DNA from: Cliona cf. orientalis
Lineage: Eukaryota; Porifera; Demospongiae; Clionaida; Clionaidae
Length of the DNA stretch: 64,000 nt
Assembly (NCBI GenBank): GCA_963930775.1
Contig: OZ005702.1
Span: 7,792,336-7,856,335 of the forward strand
Reading direction: 5' to 3'
Both the position numbers and the translations under genes were made by a program. Positions 3,001 through 23,364 of this stretch are shown here, piece by piece. The notes under the pieces were generated by a model. The model was not told the DNA's origin and did no database searches. It saw nothing but the letters and a program-made list of their open reading frames with translations. Each line of letters begins with the position of its first letter. The stretch's first letter is position 1.

Positions 3001-5422
3001 CTGCGAATTGGCCCTTTGCAGTCAATGAACGTTCCAGCGACAAGTATCTTCTGACTGCTTGAGAACGTGATTCGCCGAGAGGCTGGGCGTCTGGCTTTCT
3101 CGGTAGAGGAACAACAAATCTCCCATCTTCACGAAAGTGGTGTACTTTGAAGTGGTTGACTACTGATCTTTCCTCGGCAGACAGAGAAACAGTCTCGACG
3201 GGCTTCTCCTCTATTTCCCAAAATTTACGCAAAATATCATCTCCTGTGAGTATCGATGTGTGATGAGTGGCTATACGAGTTGAAGGTGCACAGGATTTGG
3301 TGTTCCCGGCAAGAACCCAGCCAAGTCTGGTTTCAAACGCTATGGGAGATCCGTGCGGACCTGTCCGCCGGCCATGCAACATAACCTCCACGAATACGTC
3401 AACGCCGAGGAGCATATCAATTCTGCCAGGGTGACCAAAATTCGGATCTGCTAGTTGAATGTTAGATAAATGTTTCCATTTCGAATCAAACGATATCGAG
3501 TGCAAGGGCAAGTCACAAGTAACTCTTGGTACAACAATGGCTGTGACGTGAAATATCTCACTCGGAGATGTCCGGGAGGAGAAACTGAAGCGTGCGATAG
3601 GCTGAAGTGTGGACTTGTGAGACAGTCCAGCTACTCCGGAGATCACTGCACTTTGACTAGTACGAGGCAAGTTGAGACTCTGAGCCAGGCGCTCCGAGAC
3701 GAAGGAGGCCGAGGAAGCACAATCGAGGAGGGCTCGAGCCTCTGCCGTGGAGCCATCCGGAGCATTAACAAGAACGCAACACGTCATGAGAAGTGAATTT
3801 GAAGCCAACCCGGAGGCTGCGTGTGAGGGGATCGAAGGATTAGTAGTAGTATGAGCAGGATTCGGAGATCCAGGGACATTAGTTGTGGGAGTGACGGGAG
3901 ACTCGGCCTTGGGATCAATGTGCAGCAAGGTATGATGGGGCTTTTGACACTTTCGGCAACGGTTGAGCGATCGACATTGTTTTACGAAGTGACCAGGACG
4001 TAAACAATTCATACAAAGATCGTTGGTTTTCAGCGTGGCAATCATCTTATCATGAGTCAGTCCTTTGAACTTGGAACAGGTGTGAAGAGGGTGTTTGCCC
4101 ACCTTGCAAAGCATACAGTTGTTAGTGAGCTCGGAAGTGCTCGCAGTGAAGGAAGCGATAGGTTTGCCTACAGACGATAGTCTTTTGGCAGAGGGAGCGT
4201 CGTTCCGTGACGATTTCTTACTTTGATCGGTGACGGAAGTTTCGGAGGCTTGTGCTCGGAGATTGATAAATTCCAATAGCTCTCCGTAATGCGGAACACT
4301 GGTGGCAGACTGGCTGTGCTTTTGCCACTCGAACATTGTGTTGGTATCTAGTTTGAGCTCGAGCACTGAGGTTATAAAGGGACCAGATGGCTCATAGTCC
4401 ATGGCCTTTAGCGCTCGAAGGTGTTGCTGAACCGTGTCATGTAAGCGTCGTAGCTCTCTGCCAGTGCCTTCTTTGAGAGAGGGTGTTTCGAGAATCATAC
4501 GTACATGCGTTTGGTGTATAAGGCGAGGACGATCGAAACGCAATTGAAGGCTCTCGATGGCCTCCGCGTAGTAGTCGCCAGAACGAGATAATCCTTCAAT
4601 GACCTGTTTGGCTGATCCTCCCTTCAGGGCGTGCTGGAGGTACACTAGTTTTTCTGAATTAGACAGGTTGGTGCGTCGGTGTACTGCTACGCAAAATTGC
4701 TCCCAGAATGATCTCCAGTGCAATATGTTTCCATCAAATGTTGGAACATCCAATTTCGGAAGCTTTACTCCTTTGCTATCAATAGGAGTCGTTTCATGAG
4801 CAAGAGGTTTCAAAGATTTCTTTATCAACAACGAACAGTCAAACAGGGCTTTGTCCAAACTAGCTTGCGAGGTATTGAGCTCATCTCCGTCCTCCAAGTC
4901 AATAGATAAGAGGCTGGTCCGGATGTCACTGAGCTCCTTCTTGAAGTCGGTCAATTGCTCCTCGTATTGTCGGAGGACGAATGCATCATCTGAGTCTCCT
5001 TTCAGAGCCGTAACAGCATCTTTAACGGATGAGATTGATTTCTGTAGTCGAGCAAGTCTACGAGACGCAATCTTACGAGGATCAGTATCGCTGGACGGGG
5101 AAGCAGACAGAGTGATTAGCTGCTGTACACGAACAGCCAGAATAGCCATTTCATCGTCATGATTGTCAAGAGTTTCTTGTTCGCTTGCGAGAGTCGCCTC
5201 ATCATCAACAAGGTCAACTAGAGCGTAGTGGTAAGTTTTGAAGTCCTTATCCAAAGATTCCAATTTCAATTTCATTTGCTGCGCGAGGTCAAAGGTCCCC
5301 GCCTGATCAGCTTTGCTCTCGAGATCTTTCAGTTTGGTATTGAACCGAGTGATAGAAGCACGCGTAATCCCTCTCCTTTTCTTGCAGTTAGAAAGGGAAC
5401 GTGCCGTTGTTTCTTCAGCCAT
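2..5422 (-). CDS. BEL/Pao LTR retrotransposon gag-pol polyprotein (partial, runs off window)
   Basis: The minus-strand frame opens at ATG 5422 (MAEETTARS) and has no stop down to base 2, about 1,807 codons, so it is intact as far as visible. Order from the N-terminus: a charged helical region; a DUF1759-type gag segment from about residue 215 (LPKLDVPTFDG); zinc knuckles including a canonical CCHC, CMNCLRPGHFVKQC, near residue 465; an aspartic protease of the A17 type (ALLDCASSASF, ~562); reverse transcriptase with the catalytic FYVDD box at 2472-2495; an RNase H-like segment (FCDASEQAYAG, ~1152); the integrase zinc-binding motif (GCTVCRR); the integrase DDE core (VDYAGP, SDHGTNF, GGLWEA) between about 830 and 430; and a DUF5641-type tail (VGDVVLLQEDG) cut by the window edge. 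Family knowledge: BEL/Pao elements encode one polyprotein processed by their own protease. The open frame suggests a young, possibly active copy. Confidence 0.95.
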   Translation of the reverse strand, partial: MAEETTARSLSNCKKRRGITRASITRFNTKLKDLESKADQAGTFDLAQQMKLKLESLDKDFKTYHYALVDLVDDEATLASEQETLDNHDDEMAILAVRVQQLITLSASPSSDTDPRKIASRRLARLQKSISSVKDAVTALKGDSDDAFVLRQYEEQLTDFKKELSDIRTSLLSIDLEDGDELNTSQASLDKALFDCSLLIKKSLKPLAHETTPIDSKGVKLPKLDVPTFDGNILHWRSFWEQFCVAVHRRTNLSNSEKLVYLQHALKGGSAKQVIEGLSRSGDYYAEAIESLQLRFDRPRLIHQTHVRMILETPSLKEGTGRELRRLHDTVQQHLRALKAMDYEPSGPFITSVLELKLDTNTMFEWQKHSQSATSVPHYGELLEFINLRAQASETSVTDQSKKSSRNDAPSAKRLSSVGKPIASFTASTSELTNNCMLCKVGKHPLHTCSKFKGLTHDKMIATLKTNDLCMNCLRPGHFVKQCRSLNRCRKCQKPHHTLLHIDPKAESPVTPTTNVPGSPNPAHTTTNPSIPSHAASGLASNSLLMTCCVLVNAPDGSTAEARALLDCASSASFVSERLAQSLNLPRTSQSAVISGVAGLSHKSTLQPIARFSFSSRTSPSEIFHVTAIVVPRVTCDLPLHSISFDSKWKHLSNIQLADPNFGHPGRIDMLLGVDVFVEVMLHGRRTGPHGSPIAFETRLGWVLAGNTKSCAPSTRIATHHTSILTGDDILRKFWEIEEKPVETVSLSAEERSVVNHFKVHHFREDGRFVVPLPRKPDAQPLGESRSQAVRRYLSLERSLTAKGQFADVDDVMKEYFDMGHAERVPAADLSKPHHDTFYLPMHIVRKESSSTTKLRAVFDASAKSSTGVSLNDTLQVGPTVHSALIDVLLRFRSHRVALTSDISRMYRAVKLVPSDRDFHRFVWRSSPGEQLSDYRMTRVTFGVSASSFAANMSVKQNAIDFGVEYPLAAKAVNDSFYVDDCISGADTVDEAITLQQQLQELFSKAGFLLRKWRSSELTVLERIPPDLRDSQSMQQIPNTGEYTKTLGIEWNSSKDHFRLTIAKLPPIEHVSKRFLVSDVAKTFDILGWFSPTMIKVKILLQQLWELKVSWDDTVPPQIHADWLQWRAELDLLSRKLIPRYYFSKSVDVASIQLHGFCDASEQAYAGVIYLRMTGSDGSVEVSLVCSKTKVAPIKRLTIPRLELCGAHLLSQLLHHVQGVLHIPSTNVFAWTDSTIVLNWIVGNPRRFKTYVGNRVSSIVENIPPERWNHVNGTDNPADCASRGLFPSELLEHHLWWSGPEWLRSMPTCWPEQLNIPPNEISEEKNEICLHTTIAPRTSIIQIGRFSSFDRLIRVTAWSMRFLHNCRMRKQNRLNAINVSPVLTVDELNAAEIYLLSTAQQECFSDEIHSIKQRVVLSNSSSILPLHPFMDSSGLLRVGGRDQNSKLPYATQHPVILNGKHVLTKVVIQSEHLRLLHAGPTLLTASLGRRFHIVAGTKAIRSLTRGCTVCRRNAAKSQPQILGQLPKERVTPDIVFDKVGVDYAGPVFIKHGYVRKPIVVKAYICVFVSLSVKAVHLELVSDLTSDAFIACLRRFISRRGKPSLIWSDHGTNFVGANRELQELVEFLELQKTNANVSQFCSSQKIAWKFIPEHAPHFGGLWEAAVKSLKKHLRRVTTNVKLTFEEFSTLLAQIEACLNSRPLVPLPNDDDGVEALTPGHFLIGRPLESLPDPVESYRSITLLRRWHLCQAIIRHFWKRWSTDYLASLRKFTKWHSPARNVQVGDVVLLQEDGLLPQKWLLARVIQLH

Positions 5423-5546
5423 CGTATTTGTTGAACACGATACACGATGATACGACAATATGGCGGCCACACGAGCACGTGGCCACGAACGAAAATGAGA
5501 GTTCCGAGATTGAGACTGCCAAAAAAGATCGCCGTTTCGAAATTAA

Positions 5547-5563
5547 TCCGGCTCGAAGGACCA
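5547..5563 (-). other. Primer binding site complementary to tRNA-Tyr
   Basis: The plus strand reads tccggctcgaaggacca, the 3' end of a typical animal tRNA-Tyr including CCA. The minus strand therefore carries TGGTCCTTCGAGCCGGA, a 17-base primer binding site. It sits about 125 bases upstream of the gag-pol ATG at 5422, where a retrotransposon needs it, and next to the inferred LTR end. The assignment to tRNA-Tyr comes from memory of the vertebrate tRNA sequence. Confidence 0.75.
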
Positions 5564-5567
5564 ATAA

Positions 5568-6051
5568 TGTTTGTACTCCTTCTCGGATGCTAATAGATAC
5601 TTAAATGTAGTCAATAGCTACATCCATGCACACATGCATACTTCACTCACTTTTCATTACTTTCTCTAAATATACGAACAAAAATTAAAATTTAAACATG
5701 AATAAGCAAATGAGAATGACGACCATTAACAATCAAGTTCAGTACCAACAACAACCAACATACAACTAACCAAACACAACACTAATGACCTCTGAACCCT
5801 GCCCCCAGCCCCTGCTGACTCAGCACACACCATGACGACTGGAGTGTGATGGCCCGGCCGGACTGAGAATGGAACCACACAACTAACAAAACTGAATAAG
5901 ACAAACATCACAGAGTCAGTGCACAAGGACAAACTTATTGTCACTGCTGACATGTTCAGTAGCTGGAGTCCAACTCACTGCCCGGACTGAAACTGTGGCT
6001 CCAGTCAACATCAAAGTTACTACTGAGTATAGCTAACTCTTACTGTGCACA
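5568..6051 (-). mobile_element. Probable 5' LTR of the BEL/Pao element
   Basis: On the minus strand this interval begins TGTGCACA and ends GTACAAACA, that is TGT...ACA, and its inner end lies four bases from the primer binding site. A TATATTTA promoter-like motif is at about 5668-5675. The outer boundary was chosen because the sequence beyond 6053 resembles flanking genomic DNA that recurs at about 6650. The second LTR lies outside the window, so neither LTR identity nor the target-site duplication could be checked. The outer end is uncertain by tens of bases. Confidence 0.45.
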
Positions 6052-6074
6052 CGGAGGGGGGACTGTAAGGATCA

Positions 6075-6375
6075 GTACGATTTTCTGTTAATTCTCCTTT
6101 AAATCCACCAATATGCAACATCTTGAGAGAGTTATTGACAGTGAGAGCACTGGCCAGAGAAGCTGCTCCTTTGTCCGTTATATCACATCCACCAATCCAG
6201 AGTTCCTTCAGTTGCTTGTTTTTTTGGGGGTCTCAGCCACATGGCTTATTCCTAAATCTCTCAAATTATTCGAACTAATGTCCAACTTCTCCAGAGAGCT
6301 ATTTTGAGCTAGTGCTATCGATAGATCTTTGGCCCCTATTGAAGTGATGACACAATTGTACAAGATTACACGGTG
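6075..6375 (-). pseudogene. Frameshifted duplicate of NLR leucine-rich repeats
   Basis: The minus-strand translation repeats the tail of the NLR gene to its right: LAQNSSLEKLDISSNN here matches LAQNSSLKKLDIGWNY there, and TDKGAASLA and TVNNSLK recur. After GISHVAET the copy has one base fewer in an A-rich run, so the repeats continue in another frame and the first frame ends at a stop. It lies beyond the NLR stop (6995) and beyond a good polyadenylation signal (6753-6758), so it is probably a dead partial copy. A short motif around 6054-6082 (ggatcagtac) also recurs around 6651-6680, supporting local duplication. It could instead be an exon of a lost neighbouring paralogue. Confidence 0.7.
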
Positions 6376-6994
6376 AGTTTGAGTAACTGCTCTGCGCACT
6401 CTTGGCCTGCAGTGAGGGGTGTGGTCTACACCATAATTTAATAGTTCGGCTTTCATCTACACATATGCACTGTACTAACTGGCATGTTCCCTCCATACTG
6501 TATAATCCATACTGTTAGTAGCTCATGCATATTAGCCAGCTTATCCCATGATATCATACATACTTGTACTTACCATTAAATCTTTGATTTGTGTTGGTCA
6601 GTTGTAGTGTTGTGGTCTTAGCTAGTCATGTGACATCAGCAAGCAAGGGAGGGGGGAACTGATAGGATCAGTACTTGGACGGAGCACAATGTGAAGTAAC
6701 TATAGTAGCTGCATCAATGAAAGGTGCAAGTAGAACAATCCACTTTTTAAATTTTATTAAGCATACGAACATGTAGTACATGTAGAGACATTGCAAACTG
6801 GTATGATACATGCATACAACATACAGTATACCGTATAAGTAGAAATTTTCATTAGGAGAAAATGATTAATATTGCCAATTTCGCCACCTACTATCATCGG
6901 TGAAAATTTTATCATGTTAATTTTTGCCCTGTGTTAAAGATTGCACAGAGGATATGGCGACCTTTACTGCATTGGCGAAAATCTTCTCCATGAA
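6376..6994. other. 3' flank of the NLR gene, no other gene seen
   Basis: AT-rich sequence without a credible reading frame. It contains the polyadenylation signal and the second copy of the ggatcagtac-type motif near 6665. Confidence 0.5.
6753..6758 (-). terminator. Polyadenylation signal AATAAA for the NLR gene
   Basis: tttatt on the plus strand is AATAAA on the minus strand, about 235 bases past the NLR stop codon. This is a plausible 3' UTR length and places the transcript end before the 6075-6375 fragment. Confidence 0.5.
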
Positions 6995-9900
6995 CTATTC
7001 TGCAATAGCTACAAAGGTAGCTGGATTTGGCGAAATTTGTATCCAGCAAAATCTTTTAAGCATACAGTGCTCACCTTCAATTTTAATGGGTGGGAGTCCA
7101 TTTCTCTTCCTTGCTTCATTGACCTTCCGACTTAAATAAACAGCAGTACTAGGGCCAAAGTTAGGAGGAATGGCTAGTTTCACAAACAATGATTTCTTAG
7201 CTAATGAATGAGCTATTGTTGAGAGCCCATCTTCTGTTAGTGCTCCTTTATATCCACCCATATGCAACAACTTGAGAGAGTTATTGACAGTGAGAGAAGT
7301 GGCCAGAGAAGCTGCTCCTTTGTCTGTCATTCCACAATCACCAATCCAGAGTTCCTTCAGTTGTTTGTTTTGTTTGAGGGCCTCAGCCACGTGGCTTATT
7401 CCCTTATCACCCACTAAATAGTTCCAACCAATGTCCAGCTTCTTCAGGGAACTATTTTGAGCTAGTGTTCTTGAAAGATCTTCAACTCCACTTGAAGTGA
7501 TGCCACAGCCATTCAGAATTAAAGCCCGAGTCTTGAGTGTAGCAGTTTCTCCTACAGCTTCAGATATCAAGGATGCTCCAGTGTCTCCAATTTGATTACG
7601 TGACAAGTATAGATGTTCAACGCTGGTTTCCTTACCAGTGAAAGAGGAGAGGAAAAAACTAACAGAAAAACAGTCCAGTGAACTAAGTGAGGTCTCACTA
7701 AGATCTATCTCATATTTTAGACTCTCAGCTATATAAAGACAGAGGGCAGGATCCTTAGCGTTGTGTAAACAGCGAAGAAGAGACACTAAGAAAGGCTTGG
7801 GCTTTTCTTTGATGATTTTATCAATAATATGACGAGAAGTAACTATGATAAAACCTTCAAAATTGTGCTTTGGTGAAAGGAATATGGAGGGTAAGTAAGG
7901 TTTCAGCTCATCAAAGATCCACAGAACACCACAGCCATCAGTGGCTTGTAGTCCAGCCGCTATTTTTTGAGTGTTCTCAACAACAGGAAACAGGTCATCT
8001 ATGATAGTACAGCCAATCACAACTAAACTTTTTAGTATAGTACTCTCTCTAACAGCTTGAAGAACATAGAAAGTCCCAGTTACTCCTATTGGATTTTGTG
8101 ATATATCTAAATGTAGACGTTGAAGCATTTTAGCAACATGTGAAGCACCTTCATCATGAATAGCATTAATAGTTACCAGGTCAGTATAACCGCTCACTGA
8201 CAGATATTTTATAACACACTTTGCACCAAGATCACCAATTTGGCATTGGGCAAGATTAACACTAATTTCCTTACCAACAATAGAGGAGAAAAAAAAACTA
8301 ACAGAGAGACAGTCCAGTGGACTGAGTGAGGTCTCACAAAGATCTACTTTATACTTCAGTTTCTCAGCTACATAAAGGCAGAGGGCAGGATCCTGAGCCT
8401 CGTGTAAGCAGCGAAGAAGAGCCACTAAGAGAGGCTTGGACTTGGCTTCTACTATTCTATCAATAACTTGGCGTATCCCTGAACTCTTCAACTTGGTGAT
8501 GGCAGCATAAAACTGAAACACAGCAGCAAAACGAGGCTGGTTGAACAACTGCTGGAATTGAGATACCTGCTCACTATCTGATAACTTTGTGGTTATATAA
8601 TAGGCTGATAAAACCTCTTGGATTGATAGGTGAAGAAAATTATAGAACACTGACTTTCCACTTTGGAGAAAGCTCTCTATTGCTTGAAGAAGACTGAGTG
8701 TGTTGGATCCTTGAGGCAAGTCACTGGAAAAGAAGGTCACTTTGTTCTCCATCACACCATGATAGGCAAGTTCACAGAGACACTGAAAAGGCTCTCTCAC
8801 TGCTTCAATCCTGGAAAGATCATCTAAAGATGCTAGCTCGCTAGATAGGACATGACCTCTGCCCTCCCTATCATAATGGCGTTGAATGCAGCTGAGAATG
8901 ACTGATAAGTAGATTTCATACTCAGTGTTGGGTAGTGATTGATCCCTGTATTTGAAAGTGTGCACTATGAAAGCAGCATTGAGTGGAAGGTAGCAAATGC
9001 TTTGTACCACAGGGTTCTCTTGGATTTTCTCAAGTAGGGCTTCTAAAGCTTTGGTGTCTCCCTTGAGACACTCAGTGAAGTACTGCCTCTGCTCCTCTGG
9101 GGTGAACCCCAACACCTCAATTCGTGAAGAGACCACTGGGTGTAGGTCACCTGATGAAATTGGACGAGAGGTGACTATCACTGAACATTCACTTAACATT
9201 TTCTTGATAAGTAGACAGAACATGGATTCTTGCTGTAGGTGAGGTGGGAGCTCATCCCACCCATCAAGGACCCACAGGACACCACATCCATTAGTAGCTA
9301 CCAGTTCAGCAGCTATCTCCTCAGCATTTTCAACAGGAAGCAGGTCAGCTATGGTCTGTGCACTTTGCACTGCTGGGTCTCGTAACTGGACAAGGATCAC
9401 AACAGTGAATTGTTGAAATAACTCTCCTTTGCCCCATCTCTGACAGATGTTGACTGTTAGAGTACTCTTGCCAGACCCTGGGGCTCCTTCAATCAAAATG
9501 ATCTCACCTCCATGTAGTGTGTTTCTGAAGATGTCTTCAAGTTCCACTGGAGATTTAGCATGAAGAATATCATCTACCCTACCACTGATGGTCATTTGTA
9601 CAAATCTGTCTTCAATATGACCTTGTTGCACTCTCTCTCTCTGGATCATAGCTAGTCGGAATATTTTCTTTGTTGGTGAAGGAATCCATTCAACTGGAGA
9701 TGGCGAGCCCTGGGACTGCTGGTATCTTATCCTTAGTTGAATACCAAGCGGTGTTAGTTGATAGTTATACAGGCACATACCACCAAGCTGTAGTGAATGT
9801 ATGTTCATTTCTTGAAAGAGCTCAGTCTGCTTGAGATCGAGTTGATTAGCAGATTTTAGTAACTCTAATGCTAGGCTGGATGGTACATACCACTTAACAA

Positions 9901-12900
9901 AAAACAAGCCATGGCCAATAAATGAGCCACTTGTTTCTGTCTCTATTTTATCCATGATAAAACACATTACATCAACATTAACAATGTTGCAGAACCTAGC
10001 TTGAAAATTGAGCAGTCTTGCTAGTCTGCAATCTGAAGGCTCTTCTCTGTTTCTACTCTCAACGGATACGAAATACTTGGAAGTTTGAGATGGGATAGGT
10101 GGTAAAGATACTAGCTGGTCTACAGTTGAATCTCTTGTATACATTGATATGATTTTATGATTAAATGATTTTAATACACTCTTCAAGCAATCACTGCCAA
10201 ACTTGTCTATGACAGTGGACAGGATTCTAAAGTCTAAAACTGAGAAAGGGAAGTCATGCTTTAGAAATACCTCACTTAATTGAATACTTGTATTACTTTG
10301 AACTTTTGGATGCTGGTCGATCAAATATGATGATAGCTCATTCTCTGATATCTCTTGCACTTTCAATTCACATACAATTTGTTTATACATGGTAAAGAAC
10401 TGAGATTCAAAGTCACTTGGATGCATTTGTAACCACATTACATCAATCTCAGTGTCACTTAAAAATATCCACATTTCATCCAGAGTAAGGGAGATGATTT
10501 TGTACTCCTGATAAAAGCTAGGGAAAATATTTCTGGTAAATTTCACTATGTAAAAAACTGCAGCTGATGGTATATGCCAGCTAACAGTGAATGAACCGCT
10601 CACTTTCTTGTGCACTTTACCCATAACAAAACATACTTTATCAATGTTAATCATGGAGCAGAATTTAGTTTGAAATTCGAGAAGCTTTTCTAGTCCATAC
10701 TCAAAGGGTTCACCTATGATTTTACAATCAGCTTCAAGGAAATTTTCAGGAACTCTTGACTGGATGGGTGACAAGTCTATAATATTAAGCTGCTCTAAAG
10801 TTGACATAAAGTGGCAATAGGATTCCATTACTCTCTTTAAGCAATCACTACCAAATAGTTCTATTACAATTGTAAGCATTCTGAAGTCTATCAAAGATAT
10901 AGGGAAGTTGGGGCTTAAAATTGCCTCGCTGAGCTTGACACTAACATCTCGTTGAAGGATTGGTTGCTGGTCCATCAAATATGATGACAACTTATCAGTG
11001 GCTGTTGATCTTCCTATTCCATCTACCTCACACAATATTTGCTTGTGCATGATATGGAATTGATCATTAAATTCTGTGTCACCCACATGCATCTTTAACC
11101 ACATTGCATCAATCTCAGACTCACTCAAGAACAGCCACACTCCATCCAGGGTAAGGGAGGTGATTTTGTATTCCTGGTAAAAGCTTTGATCAACATATCT
11201 GGCACATTTCACTATAACATCAGACACTAGGGCTGATGGTACAAGCCAGCTAACTGTGAATGAACCACTTATTTCCACGTTGACTTCATCCATGATAAAA
11301 CATACTTCACTAAACCTGGCAATCTTACAGAATCTGGTTCGAAACTGGAGCAGTTTTTCTAATCTGCAGTGTGAAGGCTCTTCCATAATTGTACACTTTG
11401 CTGCTACGAAATGTTTCCAATGCTCAGATTGGAATGCTGACAAGCTTATTAGTTGCTGTGCAGTTGAATGCTTCATGAAGATTGACATGTAGTTGCAATA
11501 GGATCTCATCACTCTCTTCAACCAATCACTACCAAACCTCTCTATGACAGCCTTAAGGACTCTGAAGTCTATAAAAGATGCAGGGAGCTCATGATTCAAA
11601 ACTGCCAGACTTAACTGATTACTTATTTGCGATTGACAAGGTAGTGAATGAAAGTAAAATGATAAACGCTCCTTTGATACATTTTGCACTCCAATTTCAC
11701 ACACTATTTCCTTGCACATGGTACAAAATTGGTCTTTAAATATTGTGTCACTCACACGCAATTGTGACCACATTATATCTATCTTGGCCTTATTCAAAAA
11801 CAGCCATAATCCATCCAGGGTGAGGGAGGTGATTTTGTACTCCTGGTAGAAGTTTTGGTCAACATTTCTGGTAGATGTCACTAAATCAACAACAAGGGCT
11901 GATGGTACTAGCCACCTAACTGTGAATGAACCACTCATTTCCATGTTGACTTCATCTATAATAAAACATACTTCATTAAGACTGGCAATCGTACAGAATC
12001 TGGTTCGAAACTGGAGCAATTTTTCTAATCTGCAGTGTGAAGGCTCTTCCATAATAGTACACTTGGCTGCTACAAAGTGTTTAGATTGGAGTACTGACAA
12101 GTTTATTAGCTGCTGTGCAGTTGAAAGTTTCATGAAGATCGACATATTGTTGCAATAGGACCTCATCACTCTCTTCAAGCAATCACTACCAAACTCTTCT
12201 ATGACAGCCTTAAGGACTCCAAAGTCTACAAAAGATGCAGGGAATTCTTCTTCCAAAACTACCAGACTTAACAGATCGCTAATTTGCTGTTGATAATCTA
12301 GTGACTGGAAGTACAATGACAGACGATTCTTTGACACATTTTGCATTTTCATTTCACACACTATTTGCTTGCACATGGTATGAAACTGGTCTTTTAATCT
12401 TGTGTCGCTCACAAGCACCTGTGACCGCACTACATCACTCACAGATTCATTCAAGAACAGCCACATTCCATCACGGTGAGGGAGGCAATATTGAATCTGT
12501 GATAGAGGCTGTGGTCAACCTTTTTGCGAGATTTCATTATTTTTGAAACAAAGGCTGGTGGTACAAGCCAGCTAACAGTAAACGAACCACTCGTTTCTGT
12601 GTTAACTTTATCCATAATAAAACGGAGTTCACTGAGGTCAGCAATCGTACAGAATTCGGTTCGAAACTCAAAAAGTTTGTCTAATTTGTACTGTGAAGGC
12701 TCCTCCTTGATACTACACTTGACTATGGAATATCCAGAAGGCTTAAGTTGAATGGCTGACAAGCTAATTAACTGCTGTACAGTGGACTTCTTCAAAAAGG
12801 TTGACATGTACTTGCAGTATGAACTCATTACATTTTTTAAGCAATCACTACCAAACCCTTCAATTGCAGCAGCAAGGACTCTGAAGTCCACAACAGACAC

Positions 12901-13841
12901 AGGAAGATTATGATTCAAAAGCTCAAGGCTTAACAAGTAACTTGTACGTTGGTGACACTTCAGCAAGTTCTTATAGGATGATAATAGCTGGTGCCTTGTT
13001 TTCTGTGCCATTTCTAGTTCATACACAATTTGCTCGTACATGGTGTGGAATTGGCCTTCAAATTTTGTGTCACTCACATGCAGCTGTGACCACATTGCAT
13101 CAATCTCAGTATCACTCATAAAAAGCCACATTCCATCCAGGGTAAGGGAGGTGATTTTATACTCTTGATAGAAGCTTTGGCTTAGATTTTCAGTAGATCT
13201 AACTACATCAGAAACAAGAGCTGATGGTACTAGCCACCTAACAATGAAGGAGTTTGATTCTATAACTGCCACCAGATGAAAGACAATCTCAGACAGTTTT
13301 ACTTCACTGCAAAATCTCTTTCTAATTGTATTAAGCTCTTCTAAAGTGCATTCACTTGCATTTCGGCCAATTTTGGCCTTTATCAGAGAAAATTTTGGTG
13401 GGATTTCTGTTTGGCCAGGCAAACAATCTATTAACTGTTTGATTGTTGTCTCCTTCATGAACACTATTATTTCACTACAATAGGACCGCATATCTTTTCT
13501 TAATCCTTCACTACCAAACTTCTTTATAACATATTCAATCAATCCATAGTCTATAAACGATGTGAGAGGATTGAGGTGAATAATAAACAATTTATTAATT
13601 TGTGTTTCTCTACACATTCTTGGAATCTCCTTTTTTATGGAGTCATAATATTCTTTCTTTAACAATGGTGGTAGACCTGTTAATTTATCTAATAATGTGG
13701 GCACGGTCATGTCAGGTTTAGCTTCAAGTTCAAGTCTAATCCTGGTTCGGAGACTATCAAAACGATCTACTAAATTTTCAATTTTGCTGGCTACGTCCAC
13801 TGGTTCATGACTGCCTCTGTCATCAACTTGGTCCAGTTGAC
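6995..13841 (-). CDS. NLR exon 4: six modules, NACHT, LRRs and NACHT remnant
   Basis: The acceptor TTGGTTGTAG|GT joins in phase to the Death exon. The upstream part is open to 12451; a second frame opens at 12466 and runs 1,823 codons to the stop at 6995. Contents in order: six modules (about 13800-9780); a basic linker; NACHT with P-loop near residue 994 of the second frame, Walker B near 1060 and the sensor-like VIVTSRP; a helical region (LLRCLHEAQDPALCLYVAEKL); leucine-rich repeats; a remnant of a second NACHT; the helical region again; and four to five ribonuclease-inhibitor-type leucine-rich repeats (NSSLKKLDIG, NNSLKLLHMG). A donor-like AAG|GTGAGC near 7072 could add an alternative 3' exon. 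Confidence 0.85.
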
Positions 13842-16800
13842 CTACAACCAAAATATTCCAAAAGAAAGTGCATATCATGTGAAACATTCCCTACACTAAT
13901 AATTTATGCAATAAAGATAACTCCGTGTTCCAAATTTTTGCATTAAGTTTGCGTTAAGTACTACTCAAATGCAGATCAATCAGGGCATAGCTGACTGCAA
14001 TTATGTATGACAGTAACGCTGTAACAGAGATCTCTAGAGCACACAATGTCATCCACTTGCATGCTATAGCAATAGATCCATTTGTGATACAATCCTAACC
14101 TATACTGAATATGAGAATGCGTAGTTCAGTAATAGCTGCAGAACCAACTGGCGGTGCAAGTGATAGGTCTGGTCAACCGGCTCAAGTCGCGCGCCCCAAT
14201 ATACACATATACGGAGCATGCGCAGTTTGTCGATGTGTCCTAGTTCGAATTATGGCGGGTACAGTAGTGAGGTGTAATACTTTTCATGAGGGACGAGGGA
14301 TGTAGTCTCTAAGTTTTTCATTACGTCCAGAGTCCCAATCAACAAATCGATTCGGCCTCGCGATGAGGTAATTATGATGAATAATGATGAAACCTATGAT
14401 GAAATGATGATGAAACCTATGATGAAATTGGGTGAAGACTGCTTCAAAATGTTTAGCGCGCATGATAGGTTGCTGGGACCCAGAAGAGATCGTAGAAGAG
14501 ATCGTGGACTATCCGATGATATCATTATGGCGGTTCTCTCAGTTCGCTTTCTCTAGCGAGCTCGCTTTCAGGGCAGGGGGATTTCCCTATTCAGTCGAGC
14601 ACATGGCAGGTGAAGGTCAACCGGCTCAAGCTGCGCGCCCCAATAGTGTACGCGTATACGGAGCATGCGCAGTTTGTCAATGTGTCCTAGTTCGAATTTA
14701 TGGCGGCGTCTTCATGAGGGACTCTGGACGTACATGTATAGTCTCTAAGTTTTTCATTACATCCCGAGTCCCAATTAGAAAATCTATTCGGCCGACCGAT
14801 GAGGTAATTGTGACGTAAAATATGACGAAAATGCGGTTAAGACTGTTTCAAAATGTTTAGCGCGCATGAAATCTTGTTGGGGCCCAGAATTCGAACCTAG
14901 CGTAGAAGACATTGCGGACTATCGATGAGATATGGTGATTTTCTCAGTTCGCTTTCTTTGGCAAGCACGCACTCGGGGGGATTTCTCTATTCCGTCTATA
15001 TATAGCACATGGCAGGTACTAGGTGGAGGTCACATCCGGGTCAACCGGCTCAAGCCGCACGCCCCAATATTCGCGTATACGGAGCATGCGCAGTTTGTCG
15101 ATGTGTCCTAGTTCGAATTATGGCAGGTACAGTAGCGAGGTGTAATACTTTTCATGAGGGACGAGGGATGTAGTCTCTAAGTTTTTCATTACGTCCAGAG
15201 TCCCAATTCACAAAAAACAATTCGGCCTCGCGATGAGGTAATTATGAGTAATGATGAGTAATGATGAGTAATTGATGATGAAATTGCTTTCAAAATGTTT
15301 AGCGCTCATGAAAGATTGTTGGGACCCAGAATTCGAACCTAGCGTAGAAGACATCATGGACTATCCGATGATATCATTATGGCGTTTCTCTCAGTTCGCT
15401 TTCGCTAGCGAGCTCGCTTTCAGGGCAGGGGGATTTCCCTATTCAGTCGAGCATGTGGCAGGTGAAGGTCAACCGGCTCAAGCCGCGCGCCCCAATATTG
15501 TACGCGTATATGGAGCATGCACAGTTTGTCGATGTGTCCTAGTTCGAATTTATGGCGGCGTATTCATGAGGGACTCTGGACGTAGTCTCTAAGTTGTTCA
15601 TTACGTCCAGAGTCCCAATTAACAAATCGATTCGGCCGCTCGATGAGGTAATGATGATGAAACCTATGATGAAATTGAGGTGAAAACTGCTTCAAAATGT
15701 TTAGCGCGCATGACAGGGTGTTGGGACCCAGAATTCGAACCTAGCGTAGAAGAGATCGTTGACTATCGATGAGATATGGCGATTTTCTCAGTTCGCTTTC
15801 TTTGGCGAGCACGCACTCGGGGGGATTTCCCTATTCAGTCTAGCACATGGCAGGTGGAGGTCACATCCGGGTCAACCGGCTCAAGCCGCGCGCCCCAATA
15901 TTCGCGTATACGGAGCATGCGCAGTTTGTCAATGTGTCCTAGTTCGAATTATGGCGGCGTATTCTCATGAGGGACTCTGGACGTAGTCTCTAAGTTTTTC
16001 ATTACATCCCGAGTCCCAATTCACAAAAAACAATTCGGTCGCGCGATGAGTAATTGATGACGAAAGTAATGATGAAATGATGATGAAATTGCTGTGAAAC
16101 TGTTTCAAAATGTTTAGTGCGCATGAAAGGTTGTTGGGACCCAGAATTCGAACCTAGCGTAGAAGACATAGTGGACTATCGATGAGATATGGCGATTTTC
16201 TCAGTTCGCTTTCTTTGGCGAGCTCGCACTCGGGGGGATTTCCCTGTTCAGTCAAGCACATGGCAGGTGGAGGTCACGTTCGGGTCAACCGGCTCAAGCC
16301 GCGCGCCCCAATGTACGCATGCGCAGTTTGTCGACATGTTCTAGTTCGAATTTATGGCGGCTACTTTTCATGAGGGACTCGGGATGTAGTCTCTAAGTTG
16401 TTCATTACGTCCAGAGTCCCAATCAACAAATCGATTCGGCCGCTCGATGAGGTAATGATGATGAAACCTATGATGAAATTGGGTGAAGACTGCTTCAAAA
16501 TGTTTAGCTCACATGACAGGGTGTTTGGGCCCAGAATTCGAACCTAGCGTAGAAGAGATAGTGGACTATCGATGAGATATGGCGATTCTCCCAGTTCGCT
16601 TTCTTTGGCGAGCACGCACTCGGGGGGATTTCCCTATTCAGTCTAGGCACATGGCAAGTGGAGGTCACGTCTGGGTCAACCGGCTCATGATCAAGCCGCG
16701 CGGCTCAATATACGCGCATACGGAGCATGTGCAATCTGTTGACTTGTCCTGGTTCGAATTATGGCGGGTACGGTAGCGCGATGAGGTACTTTTCATGAGG

Positions 16801-19800
16801 GACTCTGGACGTAGTCTCCAAGTTGTTGATTACGTCCAGAGTCCCAATTAACAAATCGATTCGGCCGCTCGATGAGGTAATGATGATGAAATATGATGAA
16901 ATGATGATGAAACCTATGATGAAATTGGGGTGAAAACTGCTTCAAAATGTTTAGCGCGCATGACAGGGTGTTGGGACCCAGAATTCGAACCTAGCGTAGA
17001 AGAGATCGTGGACTATCGATGAGATATGGCGATTCTCCCAGTTCGCTTTCTTTGGCGAGCACGCACTCGGGGGGATTTCCCTATTCAGTCTAGGCACATG
17101 GCAAGTGGAGGTCACGTCCGGGTCAACCGGCTCAAGCCGCGCGCCTCAATATACTCGCATACGGAGCATGCGCAGTCTGTCGACTTGTCCTGGTTTGAAT
17201 TATGGCGGGTACAGTAGCGCGATGTGGTACTTTTCATGAGGGACTCTGGACATAGTCTCCAAGTTGTTCATTACGTCCAGAGTCCCAATCAACAAATCAA
17301 TTCGGCCTCGCGATGAGGAAATTATGATGAATAATGATGAAACCTATGATGAAATGATGATGAAACCTATGATGAAATTGGGTGAAGACTGCTTCAAAAT
17401 GTTTAGCGCGCATGATAGGTTGTTGGGACCCAGCTGGTTCGAATTTATGGCGGCGTATTCGTGAGGGACTCTGGACGTAGTCTCTAAGTTTTTCATTACA
17501 TGCCCAGTAGAAATTTACTTTTCTGCGGTTATTAGGTAATGATGACATAATCTATGAGGTAATTGCTAGAAAACTCGGGGCCTTCATGGAGCCGGTATAT
17601 ATGTAGAGTATCTGACGCATGTATCCAGCGAATACATTATAAGCTGAGCGCTAGTTTCTCTGCGAAGTACCGCCGGCCGAACTTCACGCGTTCTCTTGGC
17701 TGACGTAATCCCGTGGATAAATAAAGCTTGCCTTGTGCTATATATAGCACACGCGCGGTGTGCCATGCCGCGACTAACCTGATGTTCAGAAGCTGTCGAG
17801 TTTGTCTCCTGTGATTGTAAAGAGCCTGGCACGAGGCTATCTCAGACTCCATCTCTGCGATTGAGGCAATGTGTGTACGCACTATATTGACGACCTTTTA
17901 CCATATTAACCACTATGCAGCTACTGGGCATGTGGTCAAATTTTCATAAATAAATTTATAATAATATTATTGTGTAGCAAATACTTGTCCATCATAACCA
18001 TACGGATTGTCTATCATACCCATGATGTCATGTTTCAATAGCATTCACAGCCGGACATGGAAGAAAATCAACACAATAAACTGGGCCAAATGCATAATAT
18101 TACGTCATTCAGAACAGATGAGGATGTCGTGCGCTCAAGTATCAAATAATAGTACTTTTTCAAAAGATTTCCACAGTGAACCTATTGCTGTCCACTTTTG
18201 AGTCTTGGTTCATCGAGAGCTTGCATTATCAAGAAGCGAAGAAGGCAGAGATGGAGCTAACAAAATGGATAACCAATTAGCAGGCCATAACGTATGCCTC
18301 TCACTATAATCTATGCCCCCACCCTCATAATGTAACACGGCTCTGGGCAACTCTTGAGGTCAAAGTGTCCATGCATGTACATGTAATCATATCTTGGCTC
18401 AGATCTAAACTTTTGGCATCAGGCTGTCCAGAAAGCTAACATCGAGCTAGCCACAATTAGCAAAATCTGTACCATTACTATATTATAGCAGTTGGTTGGT
18501 GAGCAATTGACTCCATATCTTTAATAGTAATGAAGACAGTAACTGTTGATGAAATGTAACTTCTTCCATGCTTTAGTAGAGTGATATACTATCACAATGA
18601 GGGTACGGTAATCTTAGTCTGAGTACTGTAACAGAGCTATAATAGTACGCTATTAAAATTAACACATATATAAAAATAACATTATTATTGCAATTAATAC
18701 ATCATATATTGAACTTTGACCCGTAATACAAACATTTGCATTGTTACTCGTGCTTCGCACTCGTATTAACAATATACGGCAATGAACTCGTGATATTTCC
18801 CGGTATCGTCGTTCTACTATGGCAATAAGTATATAGTAAAGCAAATAATTATACTATACCACTGGTGGTATATGCTTCCAGATGAAGTATAAAAGCCTCA
18901 GTAGTCCTCACATCAGGTTGTCCAGAGAGTTGAAAAATGATCTGACCAAATATTTGTGTTTGATCATGATATTCTGCCATCTGTATCGAGAATGCTACAC
19001 CTTGGACATGAACTGGACGTACCCACGTGTTGTGTAGCTATATAGTCTACTCCCCAATCCCAGGAATATTATATATACCAGTACATGAGTAGCCAGCAAT
19101 TAACCTTACTTGTCATGCACGTTTGCTGCAGTCATGCCTCCATGTTCAATATATAGCAGCCACAAACTGGAGGTAATCCAGCCAAAAGGGAGGGCTTAGT
19201 GCAGACTGAATGTCATAGTACATTTCCTTACAGCTACTCATTATTAGAGTACAAGTACAATTAGAATCATGGTGATGCTAAAGGCGTGGGAGTTTGACAT
19301 TATGAATAGTTTTTGTTCAGAGCATGAACAACTCTTGATCGAACGGTGAATAGTACTGTTGTCTTCATTGGGCGCATGCGCTTATTAGACAATGCTTAAC
19401 AACAGGAAGTAGGTATGCGCTTATTAAAAAATACGTGCTTAAAGGCATTGTGTCACGATATAAGTGGTGATTGTTACTAAATTTAGATCTAGTATACGGA
19501 CTCGCGTTGTCAAAAATAGCACACATGCAAAATATTGTCGCGCGCTCCTCGTGGATGCCAGAACCCATCGAAAGACAAGGAAAGGACTAGCTACTCGTCG
19601 CGCTGCTAGAGGACTGGTATCTCTGTCTACTTTTCTGACCTACTCTCGCTCGCTAAAGGTAAATCTACTCGTGGTATACTACCTTGCACGTGGTAGATCT
19701 AGCTAGACAAAAATATCGCTACTCTGGCACAGCCGACTCTCACCCGTCCTTCTGATAGATCTCTTACCTTCCTCCGCTAGCTGAAGACCTTCCAGCTCCA

Positions 19801-22800
19801 ACACTCGAGCCTTTCTTGGGCCAATCGCGTTCTGCTACCGCGAACTATAACCGTTGATTGAAAAGTGGCTGCCAGATTTCAATCTAATGGGCGCGGTTAC
19901 ATCACGTGAGACACTAATTTACTAAAAATAGCCCTTATATCGTGGCACAATGCCTTTAAAAGCAAGTGTGCTTATTAAAAGTAATTAATTGCTATGAGGA
20001 CTAACTAATTTACCTGTGGTACATTGCATCATTTCCTTTTCCAGCTCCTCAGCCAGGCTACCCAGACCAACAAGAGAGCTGCGTAATGCTGTACATAGTG
20101 CTCCTAGAGTTGGATCATAGGGGTGGTCAGCTGTTGGCCACTGGACCCACTGACTAAGCAGCTCTTGTAGGTAGCTCACTGGAGCCCCTGTCAACAGTGC
20201 AAGCATGCCAGATATGATATTTAATTCAGGTTGGATGAATCCAAGACTGAGACCAATCATGTCCCATTTAGTGCTGTAATTTCGGAGCAGTCGCATGAGG
20301 TGAACAAGGTCCTTCTCACTCAACTTCACTCCCTTAGCTCTATTTGGTTCTGAAGATACAAACTTATGATAAACTTAGATAATGAAAGTGACAGAGATCA
20401 ATAGGGAAGGTGGAACACACCTAGACCCCCCCCCCCCCCCCACTCCCTCCCCCCTCGGAGAATTGCTTGATGTAGTACAGAGTATCAGATGTCATTAACA
20501 GAAGATGTAAAACATTTCTGGGAGGTATAGATCCTCCTATTGAGCATGCTTTAATCCTCCCCCCCCCCCCCCAAATTAAAATTCTCTCTGAATTGATTGT
20601 ACCTGATTTCAGATGTAACTCATGTGAGGTATTAGGAGCTGATTCTGACATTTGACTTTCAGGTTGACAAAGTTCAAGAGCTCCCACACCAATTTTCAAC
20701 TCAGCCTCTTGATTTCCTGCCTCCTCCTCCATTGGACAGCTTGGCTCCGCCCCTTGACTGACATCACCACCACTGAGCTGAATAGCTGAGTATGCATAGT
20801 TGCCAAGTTTATGAGAGGAGAGACCGGGACAACGTATAATATAGAGTTAACGAGCGCAAAGCGCGCGTGAAATTTTATTGACCACGCCCACTTTCGGACG
20901 ACCACACCCACTTTCGGGCGATTATGTGTTGCCACACCCACTAAACATCGAGATATACGGACTGAAATTCGATAGTGTACTGAGTTTATGCTTGTGCCAC
21001 ACCTCCATTTGTGCAATCGAGCTGGATTCCGAGACAATGCTGTAAAATCAGGTAAACCGGGACACAACCGGGACATAGGGCCTAATTCCGGGACTATCCC
21101 GGCCAAACCGGGAAACTTGGCCACTATGAGTATGGTAGCAAGGTGATCTGACTGAGCTAGCTAAATGGCTAACATAGTAAAGCCTCTTTGTACATACCAT
21201 GCATATCCAACCCCTGATACAAGGCCACACAAAATATATTGTTTGTTTCTAATCCCCACCCGTGTGCACTTCGTTTACTTTTGATATAATTATCATAATG
21301 GGCACAGGATCATTGCATAAATATGTCATGTTGGCTCTACAGTCCGCACGCAGGGGTCAATATTTCTTTACCCGATTACGTCTTCCTAAATAGACCATGC
21401 GAGTGTGGTTTCTTCGCTAGAATGGCCCTGAAGGGTGGATCAGTGCTTTGAGGTAAGAATAATAATTTTGACTTCATACAGGTAGTGAGATACAGCACCC
21501 TCAATTATCTAAAATGCCTGGAGCCCTAACACAAGACAGATGAAGACTACTGGATCCCATATAGATACAAACCATTAAATTTTCTTAGTTCGATGGCCTC
21601 AGCCTATATGTGGATTCTGGCAGGTACAGTGCCCATTCCTGGCAAAACAATTATTCATTGTGCATCAGCGCCGGCGGAGCCAGTCCGGTTGGTCAGGCCA
21701 TAACCGGACTACTTTTTCATAGTTTGCCTGGGTAATGATCGTTAACTCTATCAATCGTGTGGTAAAGGTCGTCAAATAACTTGCATGCTTCATGATTTGA
21801 ATGGAAGGTTGTCCAGACCAAGGGCTTATTGAGCCGCCATAGGCGGCGAGAGGGCATGTAATGTATGTAGACGGCGAAATTCAACATGTTACTAAAAATA
21901 GATTTTTTGGACTAGCTATGAAATTCTGTTTGATGGCTTGTCAGCCCGTTCTTTTCGAGATTTGACAAAGAAGAGAGGCTATCATGGTCCTTTCAGGTGG
22001 TTCTCAACGCTGCCGAGTGTCAGAAACAAAATCGAGCTGAGTTTGAGTCTCCAGCAGTGTAAAGCTCCCGTTCACTTTACCGCCTAACGACAGAGACAGA
22101 AGCGATGGGGTAAGCTTCTATTGAAGACTAGCTTAGAATGGAGACCTTCGATGTCTCATGACCCCAGCTTAGTCTGATACAGCGTGTGATGGCGTTTTGT
22201 CAGCTGAGGGCTGTTTTTCACCGCCACCGTCTCTGATCGACTCGAGTATAGCCTCGTTTTCACTTGTCTCGACGATTGGTGTTGCCTTCTGGATCTTTGG
22301 TGCTGCCAACAAAGGCTTAGCGTGGAAGTAGGTCGCTATAAAACCAGGTACAAACGTTGCCTATACTAGTTTGTTCATTGAATGTTTTGCTATTTTTAGT
22401 AACAATTAGGATTTTGCCGTCTACGTTAGCACTATGCGGGTTACATGCCCTCTCGCCGCCTACGGCGGCTCGATAAGCCCTTGTCCAGACCTAGCTTCTC
22501 CAGACTTCACTAAGGTATCACTATCTTGGTCCTAGTACAGAAATATTTAAAGTCTTTTAAATTTAAGCTCAGTCACTTATATTAGAGTGAGCCACATAGG
22601 CCATGGGATCATAGCTACATGTAGTACGAAAAAAGGAATTAGCTGTAAATTTCCGAATCTTGGATATCTTGTGAAGCTAGTGTGCCTGGCTGTTAAAATG
22701 GGACTCAGAAGCTACCAAAAGCAGTCTCTGAGACTGTTAACTTCAAACTTTTCCTGGGGGAGCATGCTCCCAGACCCCACTACTTTCTGCATGCATATGC

Positions 22801-23364
22801 ATGCCACTACCCAGCTAGATTTGGCCTGACCACATAAAAATTACTTCCTCTGGTCCTGCACATGCAGTAAGAATGCTCCATGGACAATCAATACCCTGCA
22901 TGCAGACTCGATGGACACGTGAAAGGTTCGTTTATGCTCAGCATTTTGGCTCTGACAGCAATCAAAATCAACTGCCCCCCGTGTATACTTTATAAATTTC
23001 TATAGGATGAGCAACAAACTATTTACTTTGTGTGGCCTAATCTGCTGTGCAACTCACTTTGGTAGGCAGAGCTCAGACTCTCCACAACTTCTTTAGCACA
23101 CGCCACCTCTGATAGAATATCAAGGAGCTCCGCGAACTTTGATGGAGCCAACTCTATTTTATTTCTTATTGCTTCAATCAGAATGGTTGCTTGCTCTGTC
23201 GAGGTGAGAGAGATATCCAGCATCTTCAACATAATCTCCCCTGAAAGGAAACCTTTGCTGAGAAGTAACCTTGCCACGCCCAGGGGTTCGTTCGACAACG
23301 CTAGCATAAGATCGTGAGTTCGAATCGTGATCGCCTTGAGTTCGGGGGACGGATTAGATGCCAT
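6995..23364 (-). CDS. NLR-type immune receptor: CARD-Death-six tandem modules-NACHT-LRR, split by a frameshift
   Basis: Four exons fit together: 23364-23058, 20785-20603, 20349-20014 and 13841-6995. Each intron is GT-AG and all three are phase 1, so the frame is continuous until the lesion. The exons carry a CARD-like domain, a linker, a Death domain, six ~220-residue modules, NACHT (P-loop GAPGSGKST at 9461-9487, Walker B VLWVLDGWDELP near 9250-9285) and leucine-rich repeats. The coding exons total 7,673 bases; one base more would give a whole number of codons, about 2,557 residues. That base appears to be missing near 12475. Family knowledge: NLRs are cytoplasmic sensors that oligomerise through NACHT and signal through CARD or Death partners; sponges carry many. 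Having both CARD and Death plus a six-fold module array is unusual. The gene could be a pseudogene, or the lesion could be a sequence error. Gene-level confidence is high; the exon joins are inferred. Confidence 0.85.
7640..8000 (-). other. Remnant of a second NACHT domain inside the LRR region
   Basis: The segment ENTQKIAAGLQATDGCGVLW copies ENAEEIAAELVATNGCGVLW of the main NACHT, and IIVTSRHI copies VIVTSRPI. The following LLRCLHNAKDPALCLYIAESL copies the post-NACHT helices. The Walker B acidic cluster DGWDELP is reduced to FDELKPYLP, and no P-loop precedes it, so it should not bind ATP. The reading frame is kept. It looks like a tandem duplication of the NACHT-to-LRR block followed by internal deletion. 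Confidence 0.75.
9780..13800 (-). repeat. Six tandem ~660-bp coding repeats inside the NLR
   Basis: Each unit encodes about 220 residues: a helical half with FRVLKAVIE-FGSDCLKRVM-SYC, a middle with EEPS-----LEKLL-FRTRFC, and a beta-like half with SGSFTVSWLVPSALV, ending YQEYKITSLTLDGMWLF. The SLTLDG-type ends fall near 13140, 12470, 11815, 11148, 10480 and 9785, a period of 655-695 bases. Units 3 and 4 are nearly identical at DNA level (compare 11922-12158 with 11256-11492). Unit 1 and unit 6 are the most divergent. The module resembles, from memory, an unnamed helical-plus-beta segment found next to Death and NACHT domains in cnidarian and sponge proteins. I cannot assign a Pfam name. Confidence 0.9.
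12464..12485 (-). other. Single-base deletion (frameshift) within module 2 of the NLR
   Basis: At the end of every other module the DNA reads, on the minus strand, a CCTCCCTTACCCTGGATGG-type string encoding SLTLDG. Here one base is absent (CCTCCCTCACCGTGATGG), so SLTLDGMWLF becomes SLTVMECGCS and then a stop. Both sides of the lesion are otherwise well conserved, so the break is recent, or a sequencing or assembly error. Confidence 0.8.
13842..14109. other. NLR intron 3, proximal part
   Basis: Intron sequence between the main exon and the satellite array. The ATG at 13887 lies in this intron upstream of the acceptor at 13842-13843 and is probably not used. No other feature was seen. Confidence 0.5.
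14110..17515. repeat. Satellite array of ~400-440-bp units with inverted-repeat hairpins
   Basis: About eight copies; the landmark gagtcccaat recurs at about 14330, 14766, 15198, 15610, 16011, 16414, 16839 and 17280, and the last unit is truncated near 17513. Each unit contains a near-palindrome whose arms read gggactctggacgta and tacgtccagagtccc around a spacer of about 18 bases (gtctctaagtttttcat). Arms occur in two main variants, tctggacgta and tcgggatgta. The unit also carries gcatgcgcagt, two ttcgaa sites and a variable gatgatgaaa microsatellite. The short frames in it are not proteins. It lies wholly inside NLR intron 3. Confidence 0.9.
17516..19438. other. NLR intron 3, middle part; no gene seen
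   Basis: About 1.9 kb of intron after the satellite. There is a perfect palindrome gtgctatatatagcac near 17736. Short open frames around 17584-17882 have no splice support or recognisable motif. Confidence 0.5.
19439..19959. mobile_element. TTAA-flanked MITE (piggyBac-like termini)
   Basis: The left end is TTAA then aggcattgtgtcacgatata, and the right end is tatatcgtggcacaatgcct then TTAA. The inverted termini match over about 22 bases with one difference, and TTAA directly repeats at both ends. The body is 513 bases (19443-19955) and has no transposase. Family knowledge: TTAA targets are used by piggyBac and some Kolobok elements. It is a non-autonomous copy 55 bases from the Death exon. 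Confidence 0.8.
20014..20349 (-). CDS. NLR exon 3: Death domain
   Basis: Acceptor TATCTTCAG|AA leads into PNRAKGVKLSEKDLVHLMRLL. The pattern KWDMIGLSLGF, then SYLQELLSQWVQW, then LGALCTALRSSLVGLGSLA is a classic Death-domain spacing (helix 2 W-IG-LG, helix 4 LL--W, helix 5 L--AL-----G---LA). The donor is CACAG|GTAAAT at 20013. Family knowledge: Death domains assemble signalling platforms with other Death-domain proteins. The ends match exons 2 and 4 in phase. A TTAA-flanked MITE lies only about 55 bases beyond the donor. Confidence 0.85.
20425..20450. repeat. Poly-C tract
   Basis: A run of C around 20426-20442, with a second around 20561-20574, in the short intron between the Death and linker exons. 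The C runs invite replication slippage and sequencing error. Confidence 0.8.
20603..20785 (-). CDS. NLR exon 2: acidic linker
   Basis: Acceptor TACTCAG|CT, then a 183-base open frame giving SGGDVSQGAEPS and MEEEAGNQEAELKIGVGA, ending at donor TCAG|GTACAA. Both junction phases (2 bases in, 1 base out) agree with the flanking exons. The protein is acidic and Ser/Pro-rich, a likely flexible spacer between CARD and Death. The polypyrimidine tract at the acceptor is modest, so the 5' boundary is the weakest join in the model. Confidence 0.6.
20786..21810. other. NLR intron 1, distal part; repeat-like but no gene
   Basis: This holds four close copies of ccgggac between about 20820 and 21110, and an inverted pair agtccggtt / aaccggact near 21680-21712. 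These look like decayed transposon sequence but no boundaries could be set. Frames here lack splice or domain support. Confidence 0.4.
21811..22491. mobile_element. MULE-like MITE with 9-bp target-site duplication
   Basis: The direct repeat gtccagacc occurs at 21811-21819 and 22483-22491. Between them a 663-bp element begins aagggcttattgagccgcc and ends with the inverse of aagggcttatcgagccgcc. The terminal inverted repeats match over about 42 bases with two differences, then again more loosely up to a shared ttactaaaaatag. Nine-base duplications are the hallmark of Mutator-like elements (family knowledge). There is no transposase frame, so it is non-autonomous. It sits in NLR intron 1. Confidence 0.85.
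22492..23057. other. NLR intron 1, proximal part; nothing recognisable
   Basis: AT-rich intron between the MITE and the CARD exon donor. No domain, repeat or RNA feature was seen. Confidence 0.5.
23058..23364 (-). CDS. NLR exon 1: CARD-like domain and start codon
   Basis: ATG at 23364 opens about 102 codons of helical protein (MASNPSPELKAITIRTH...). The six-helix style and the segment IRNKIELAPSKFAELLDIL are CARD-like. It ends YQ then A, at the donor AAA|GTGAGT (GT at 23057-23056), phase 1. Family knowledge: CARDs recruit CARD-bearing adaptors or caspases. The 520 bases upstream, before the SCAMP stop, must hold the promoter. A Death-effector-like fold cannot be excluded by eye. Confidence 0.75.

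Follow-up and report, generated by a model that had tools for sequence, protein, structure and literature searches.

RAIDD/CRADD joins a CARD and a Death domain in one polypeptide, as does the sponge receptor family described here, but it is a small adaptor without a sensor body. Vertebrate TRADD contains one TRADD-N and is not known to have a CARD, NACHT or LRR. According to the passages of a 2021 survey that treat this protein (Kaur et al. 2021, PMC8195603), it combines TRADD-N with a Death domain, and its TRADD-N binds the MATH domains of TRAFs, a partner that the sponge family would share along with the two domains. The same source describes TRADD-N proteins of the NCOA6 clade in Amphimedon, which resemble the family described here in having one to three Death-like domains, TRADD-N, a variable C-terminus that includes LRRs, and a large expansion. 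In the passages devoted to them, TRADD-N tends to single copy and NACHT-LRR is not named as a C-terminus, whereas the present family has four to six tandem modules. The sponge NLRC, NLRD and NLRX receptors, as presented in parts of PMC12909245, likewise possess NACHT and LRR with an N-terminal CARD or Death domain and show large lineage-specific expansion; unlike the present family, they are sorted there into CARD or DEATH categories, not both, and are given no TRADD-N array. For amphioxus NLRs, a section of PMC2575513 presents CARD, DD or DED as alternative connectors. Abundant NACHT, Death and TRADD-N-like domains have also been described for sponges in portions of PMC12909245 and PMC8195603. 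Sponge NLRC and NLRD receptors and proteins with Death-like domains plus TRADD-N are already known; what may be new is the combination of CARD, Death and array, for which an earlier description is possible. An NLR with a CARD, a Death domain and a 4-6-fold TRADD-N-like array before NACHT-LRR was not found among the titles and abstract openings listed by searches of open-licence literature.

We analysed a window of 64,000 nucleotides (C14:7792336-7856335, C14 being its contig) from the Cliona cf. orientalis assembly, which comprises 216.8 Mb in 149 contigs. The gene of interest lies on the minus strand of the window. Exon 1 (23058..23364, 307 nt) carries the start codon and a predicted CARD (102 aa), exon 2 (20603..20785, 183 nt) encodes a 61-codon linker, and exon 3 (20014..20349, 336 nt, phase 1-1) encodes a putative Death domain. 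Exon 4 (6995..13841) holds six repeated modules of ~220 aa each, followed by NACHT and LRR. The three introns (20786..23057, 20350..20602 and 13842..20013) are all GT-AG and in phase 1, and the third contains a tandem repeat with a 447-bp unit (~7 copies, 14396-17342). The original prediction, made from the letters of the window, had named CARD, Death, six modules, NACHT and LRR in this order and on this strand, with these three introns, and all of this stood. Exon 2 was implied but unnamed in it, and proved to be a conserved linker.

The window copy (W) was compared with two paralogs on the same contig, B (C14:5005889 onward, plus strand) and C (C14:7752229 downward, minus strand). Both have exons of 307, 183 and 336 nt, and their splice sites agree with those of the window copy in position and phase, with the donor and acceptor of intron 1 placed identically. 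Their spliced proteins are open (2,386 codons in B and 2,713 in C), and exon 4 forms a single open frame in each. Since the same exons and splice positions recur in two open paralogs, a family architecture running from CARD through linker, Death and modules to NACHT and LRR is well supported as real at the level of sequence. The dN/dS ratio among W, B and C was 0.38-0.73 over the CARD, linker and Death exons and 300 codons around NACHT, with the modules outside the comparison, which indicates that the compared regions are coding and weakly constrained. A further relative, gene J (C14:7885188, plus strand), has its CARD spliced directly to the module exon, in phase 1 and in frame, giving a protein of 2,169 aa; among the matches listed, no linker or Death match lay between its CARD and module exons. 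The number of modules per array was six in W and B, five in J and four in C. Paralog C contains two complete NACHT domains within one frame. Two complete NACHTs in one open frame were recorded at L041-L043 (C14:7737257-7744586) and at C14:5415115/5417281, and such frames seemingly stem from duplication of a unit made of a module end, NACHT and LRR.

The window copy changes frame where module 2 ends, near 12.48 kb: the minus-strand ORFs 13890-12451 and 12514-6995 lie in different frames. The spliced reading consequently ends at codon 738 of the ~2,557 spanned by the four exons. A continuous frame from CARD to LRR, as a single gene would require, is present in the predicted splicing of paralogs B and C and absent from the window copy, which is probably a pseudogene or a broken allele, or at most the source of a 738-aa protein with CARD, Death and two modules. 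A shared intron at the break was also considered and was ruled out, as paralogs B and C read open across the site. The break might be an assembly error in an intact gene, given that just one frame step is involved and that open paralogs exist. We consider this possible but doubtful: the window sequence itself is broken, and other array loci are also split among several open frames (e.g., 574/443 and 233/1274 aa), although introns are possible there.

The recurrence of the architecture was assessed through matches to the CARD exon, of which there were 70 in all, 47 of them on C14. The counts that follow are lower bounds, as the best candidates were scored, and an absent exon may simply be unlisted. 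At least 38 of the 47 C14 CARD exons had same-strand modules within the next 25 kb downstream, and CARD, Death and modules followed each other in order at at least seven, six of which also had an LRR exon. Together with the matching splice sites and phases in B and C, these seven loci support the claim that two death-fold domains precede NACHT-LRR in one gene. Among the matches listed, a Death exon came after 10 of 21 close CARDs (≥66% identity) versus 0 of 26 distant ones (50-59%; Fisher P 6.8e-5, the copies being related and so not independent). By eye, 13 of the 14 genome matches to the linker exon were near a same-strand Death exon, and the linker was present at 12 of 14 near-full-length Death exons of ≥74% identity. 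From this pattern, linker and Death appear to form a two-exon cassette in phase 1-1 that is carried by some family members only. The cassette measures 519 nt and is frame-neutral, so that it could be skipped.

The same searches bear on whether CARD, linker and Death could make up a separate RAIDD-like adaptor gene lying merely upstream of a module-NACHT-LRR gene. Three CARD-Death pairs had no listed modules within 25 kb, and for the linker-Death pairs near C14:7494196, C14:7509297 and C14:2364387 the 25 kb upstream contained no listed CARD, while the pair at C2:2295494 had a weak CARD alone, 21.6 kb upstream. Intron 3, moreover, is long (6.2 kb) and repeat-rich. Against these points, W, B and C agree in the position and phase (1) of the splice sites at their Death and module exons, the CARD-to-module splice of gene J uses this phase too, and order and strand are kept at seven loci; we regard a separate adaptor gene as improbable. 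At locus L046, a minus-strand ORF (4082-5998) with a phage-integrase-type (tyrosine recombinase) match lies beside a CARD-Death pair that has no nearby modules, and this ORF may belong to a mobile element that split the gene.

When the CARD, Death and module exons of the window were scanned with Pfam, none was identified, and an NCBIfam scan covering the CARD exon and the two exon-4 frames was equally unproductive. Searches against the sequences of solved structures with CARD, Death and module alignments returned weak unrelated rows only. For CARD, none of 11 sequences (the window exon and 10 paralogs) was matched by Pfam. The predicted model of the CARD exon matched the fold of CARDs, and the exon is homologous to a protein of the same genome that exceeds the CARD Pfam cut-off; fold and homology support the predicted CARD in exon 1. 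In the family of the Death exon itself, one of nine members matched PF00531 (E 0.015). All eight sampled relatives elsewhere in the genome matched this model (E 4e-9 to 0.046), two of them over the cut-off, and homology thus supports a putative Death domain in exon 3. Genome-wide, a first look gave 1292 Death domain candidates, 150 of which were scored. HMM searches, which the original prediction had proposed as a check, confirmed its NACHT on the window sequence; those for CARD and Death failed on the window exons, with both matched in relatives within the genome. In passages of PMC12909245, NLRC is reported absent from 7 of 11 sponge genomes on the basis of a HMMER and SMART pipeline, and the window CARD fails Pfam here. 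Since Pfam misses the CARD and Death exons of this family, sponge counts of such NLRs in the literature may be too low.

The NACHT domain (9065..9502, minus strand) was over the cut-off of PF05729 (E 2.9e-21), with Walker A at 9461-9487 and Walker B at 9251-9277. C-terminal LRRs (7145..7684, minus strand, outer limits estimated) were detected by LRR_6 over its cut-off (E 1.4e-15) in the same 1839-aa frame, the best stretch being aa 1630-1650 of the 6995-12514 frame. With a NACHT that has both Walker motifs and C-terminal LRRs in the same frame, the predicted products of the window family classify as animal NLRs. Inside the LRR part lies a remnant of a second NACHT with its helical region but without a P-loop (7565..8002, minus strand, ~440 bp), overlooked previously and recognised because two stretches, of 90 and 66 aa, share 63% and 53% identity, respectively, with the first NACHT unit. 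Just past the stop of the gene, LRR-like fragments in two short overlapping frames (6020-6456, minus strand) resemble its last LRRs by eye. A long open gag-pol-type frame occupies 2-5542 on the minus strand. In it, DUF1759 and Pao peptidase A17 exceed their cut-offs and RT is matched weakly; these matches identify it as a putative BEL/Pao-type retroelement beside the gene, continuing past the window edge. An RNA-family scan across the window found nothing.

The six modules are arranged in tandem on the minus strand: module 1 (13117..13812), of a first-position type with a helical half and a TRADD-N-like plait; module 2 (12469..13137), with the frame break at its 3' end; modules 3 (11795..12472), 4 (11126..11815) and 5 (10460..11146); and module 6 (9767..10480), of a last-position type. 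Structure prediction, proposed earlier for each module, was carried out for module 4 with the six window modules as input. The best of five models had a pLDDT of 80 and a pTM of 0.75 (the pLDDT of the five spanned 80.0 to 50.4), and it comprised about seven helices followed by an RRM-like beta-alpha-beta-beta-alpha-beta plait. The fold description of Kaur et al. 2021 (PMC8195603) characterises TRADD-N as RRM-like and places a uS motif in the turn between beta2 and beta3. The uS-motif position was occupied by S in 46 of 48 modules, and the residue before this position was G in 31, A or S in 3, N in 9 and another residue in 5. On a tree, first and last modules mostly clustered by position while middle ones of different genes intermixed (supports not inspected), which suggests that arrays grow and turn over in the middle.

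Profile comparison related the modules to TRADD-N over both halves. An hhalign comparison of the modules with 19 two-part sequences, in which both halves were taken as one stretch (12 loci, 9 over the TRADD-like_N cut-off), gave Prob 95.4, P 1.9e-8 and a score of 58.7; none of 100 column shuffles scored above 20.75. Narrower profile-profile trials gave P values of 0.0054 (modules versus TRADD-like_N), 0.00033 and 0.0021. Against a profile of the L047 type, P was ~0.002, and in the 0.0023 trial 40 column shuffles reached 22.56 versus 28.0. Since the narrower alignments gave P 0.0003-0.005, the strength of the 1.9e-8 value depends on the wider alignment. A genome search with TRADD-like_N found 46 places, none in the module arrays, and a helical half was located 61-109 bp upstream of TRADD-like_N at 23 of the 24 over-cut-off loci and at 39 of the 46 overall. 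Single-module relatives form a second family in the genome (L047 on C19, L048 on C3 and L049 on C6), and an iterative HMM started from them reached loci with Pfam TRADD-like_N. Like the window family, these relatives have a CARD-like domain and a module made of a helical and a TRADD-N-like part; unlike it, they have a single module and an FN3 domain, with a second CARD-like domain in L047 and L048. NACHT lies in the same open frame as the CARD-like domains and the module in L047 and L048, L049 having been covered in part, and a Pfam Death exon was found upstream of L048 (C3:4931314) and L049 (C6:11058992).

The plait could instead be a ferredoxin-like domain unrelated to TRADD-N. The modules have no direct Pfam match, their narrow profiles reach only P 0.002-0.005, and the PDB matches are SEA, ACT, ribosomal protein S6 and Nup54 folds. 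A Foldseek search with module 4 gave no match at E ≤0.001 and general ferredoxin-like folds by VIA; the absence of TRADD among the matches listed excludes nothing. An unrelated plait nonetheless has little chance of being correct, as the P 1.9e-8 profile match is in register over both halves, the uS motif is present, and the helical half is paired with TRADD-like_N elsewhere in the genome. The modules are probable distant members of the TRADD-N superfamily, each with a predicted helical half and a TRADD-N-like domain. What had been described as a long modular spacer is accordingly not a mere spacer; plait, uS motif and profile match point to probable TRADD-N adaptor modules arranged in tandem.

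Scarcity of MATH domains had counted as an argument against TRAF partners, as the older model PF00917 found one domain in the genome, and this argument was overturned by the TRAF-type MATH model PF21355, with at least 150 domains (150 of 150 scored were over the cut-off, out of 344 candidates). In its discussion of partners, the 2021 survey (PMC8195603) disfavours MATH as a universal TRADD-N partner, partly since no MATH expansion was seen. For this animal, the 150 or more domains remove the argument from TRADD-N expansions without MATH expansions; modules and MATH domains may bind each other. The adaptor repertoire of the genome, with these MATH domains and the Death candidates noted above, is strikingly large.

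We consider it fairly probable that the window gene belongs, with its frame broken, to an NLR family expanded in tandem, and that the open members of this family contain a built-in multivalent TRADD-like adaptor of four to six modules. Beyond the observed domain order, conservation and copy numbers, we infer a mechanism in which the LRRs, and perhaps module surfaces too, would sense a microbial or self signal, and NACHT would exchange nucleotide and then oligomerise. Clustered CARDs and Death domains would nucleate death-fold assemblies and recruit caspases and Death adaptors, while oligomerisation would multiply the TRADD-N array and so recruit many TRAF-type MATH proteins. A TRADD-like adaptor would thus be built into the receptor, linking cell-death to TRAF/NF-kB-type outputs, and array length might act as a gain setting. 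The original prediction had suggested two adaptor pathways in one sensor, which stays conjectural; if the TRADD-N reading is true, CARD, Death and TRADD-N would each offer an adaptor surface, making three kinds.

Alternatively, the array may be a recognition or decoy surface, its variable copies sampling ligands together with the LRRs, and only CARD and Death would signal. The intermixing of middle modules among genes, with first and last ones mostly grouping by position (supports not inspected), would fit such a role, as would the array lengths of four to six and the high entropy of TRADD-N families other than NCOA6, TRADD and DEDD2 proper, as noted in part of PMC8195603. We hold this to be unlikely, though worth weighing: 46 of 48 modules retain the interaction serine, in keeping with a conserved partner, and TRAF-type MATH domains are many in this genome. 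Returning to an adaptor role for the modules, we tentatively propose, as a possibility in which our confidence is low, that the adaptor layer has been taken up into the receptors of this NLR family. The sensor itself would display CARD, Death and a tunable tandem TRADD-N array and dock directly onto an expanded TRAF-MATH set, so that a single oligomer might set off caspase and TRAF outputs together. How strongly it signals, and along which branch, would then depend on the number of modules and on the optional linker-Death cassette.

Since this animal combines a TRADD-N-like array of many copies with no fewer than 150 TRAF-type MATH domains, the question of the invertebrate TRADD-N partner becomes testable in it. 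The family suggests that NLR sensing and TRADD/TRAF-type signalling, which reside in separate proteins in vertebrates, can be united in one invertebrate polypeptide.
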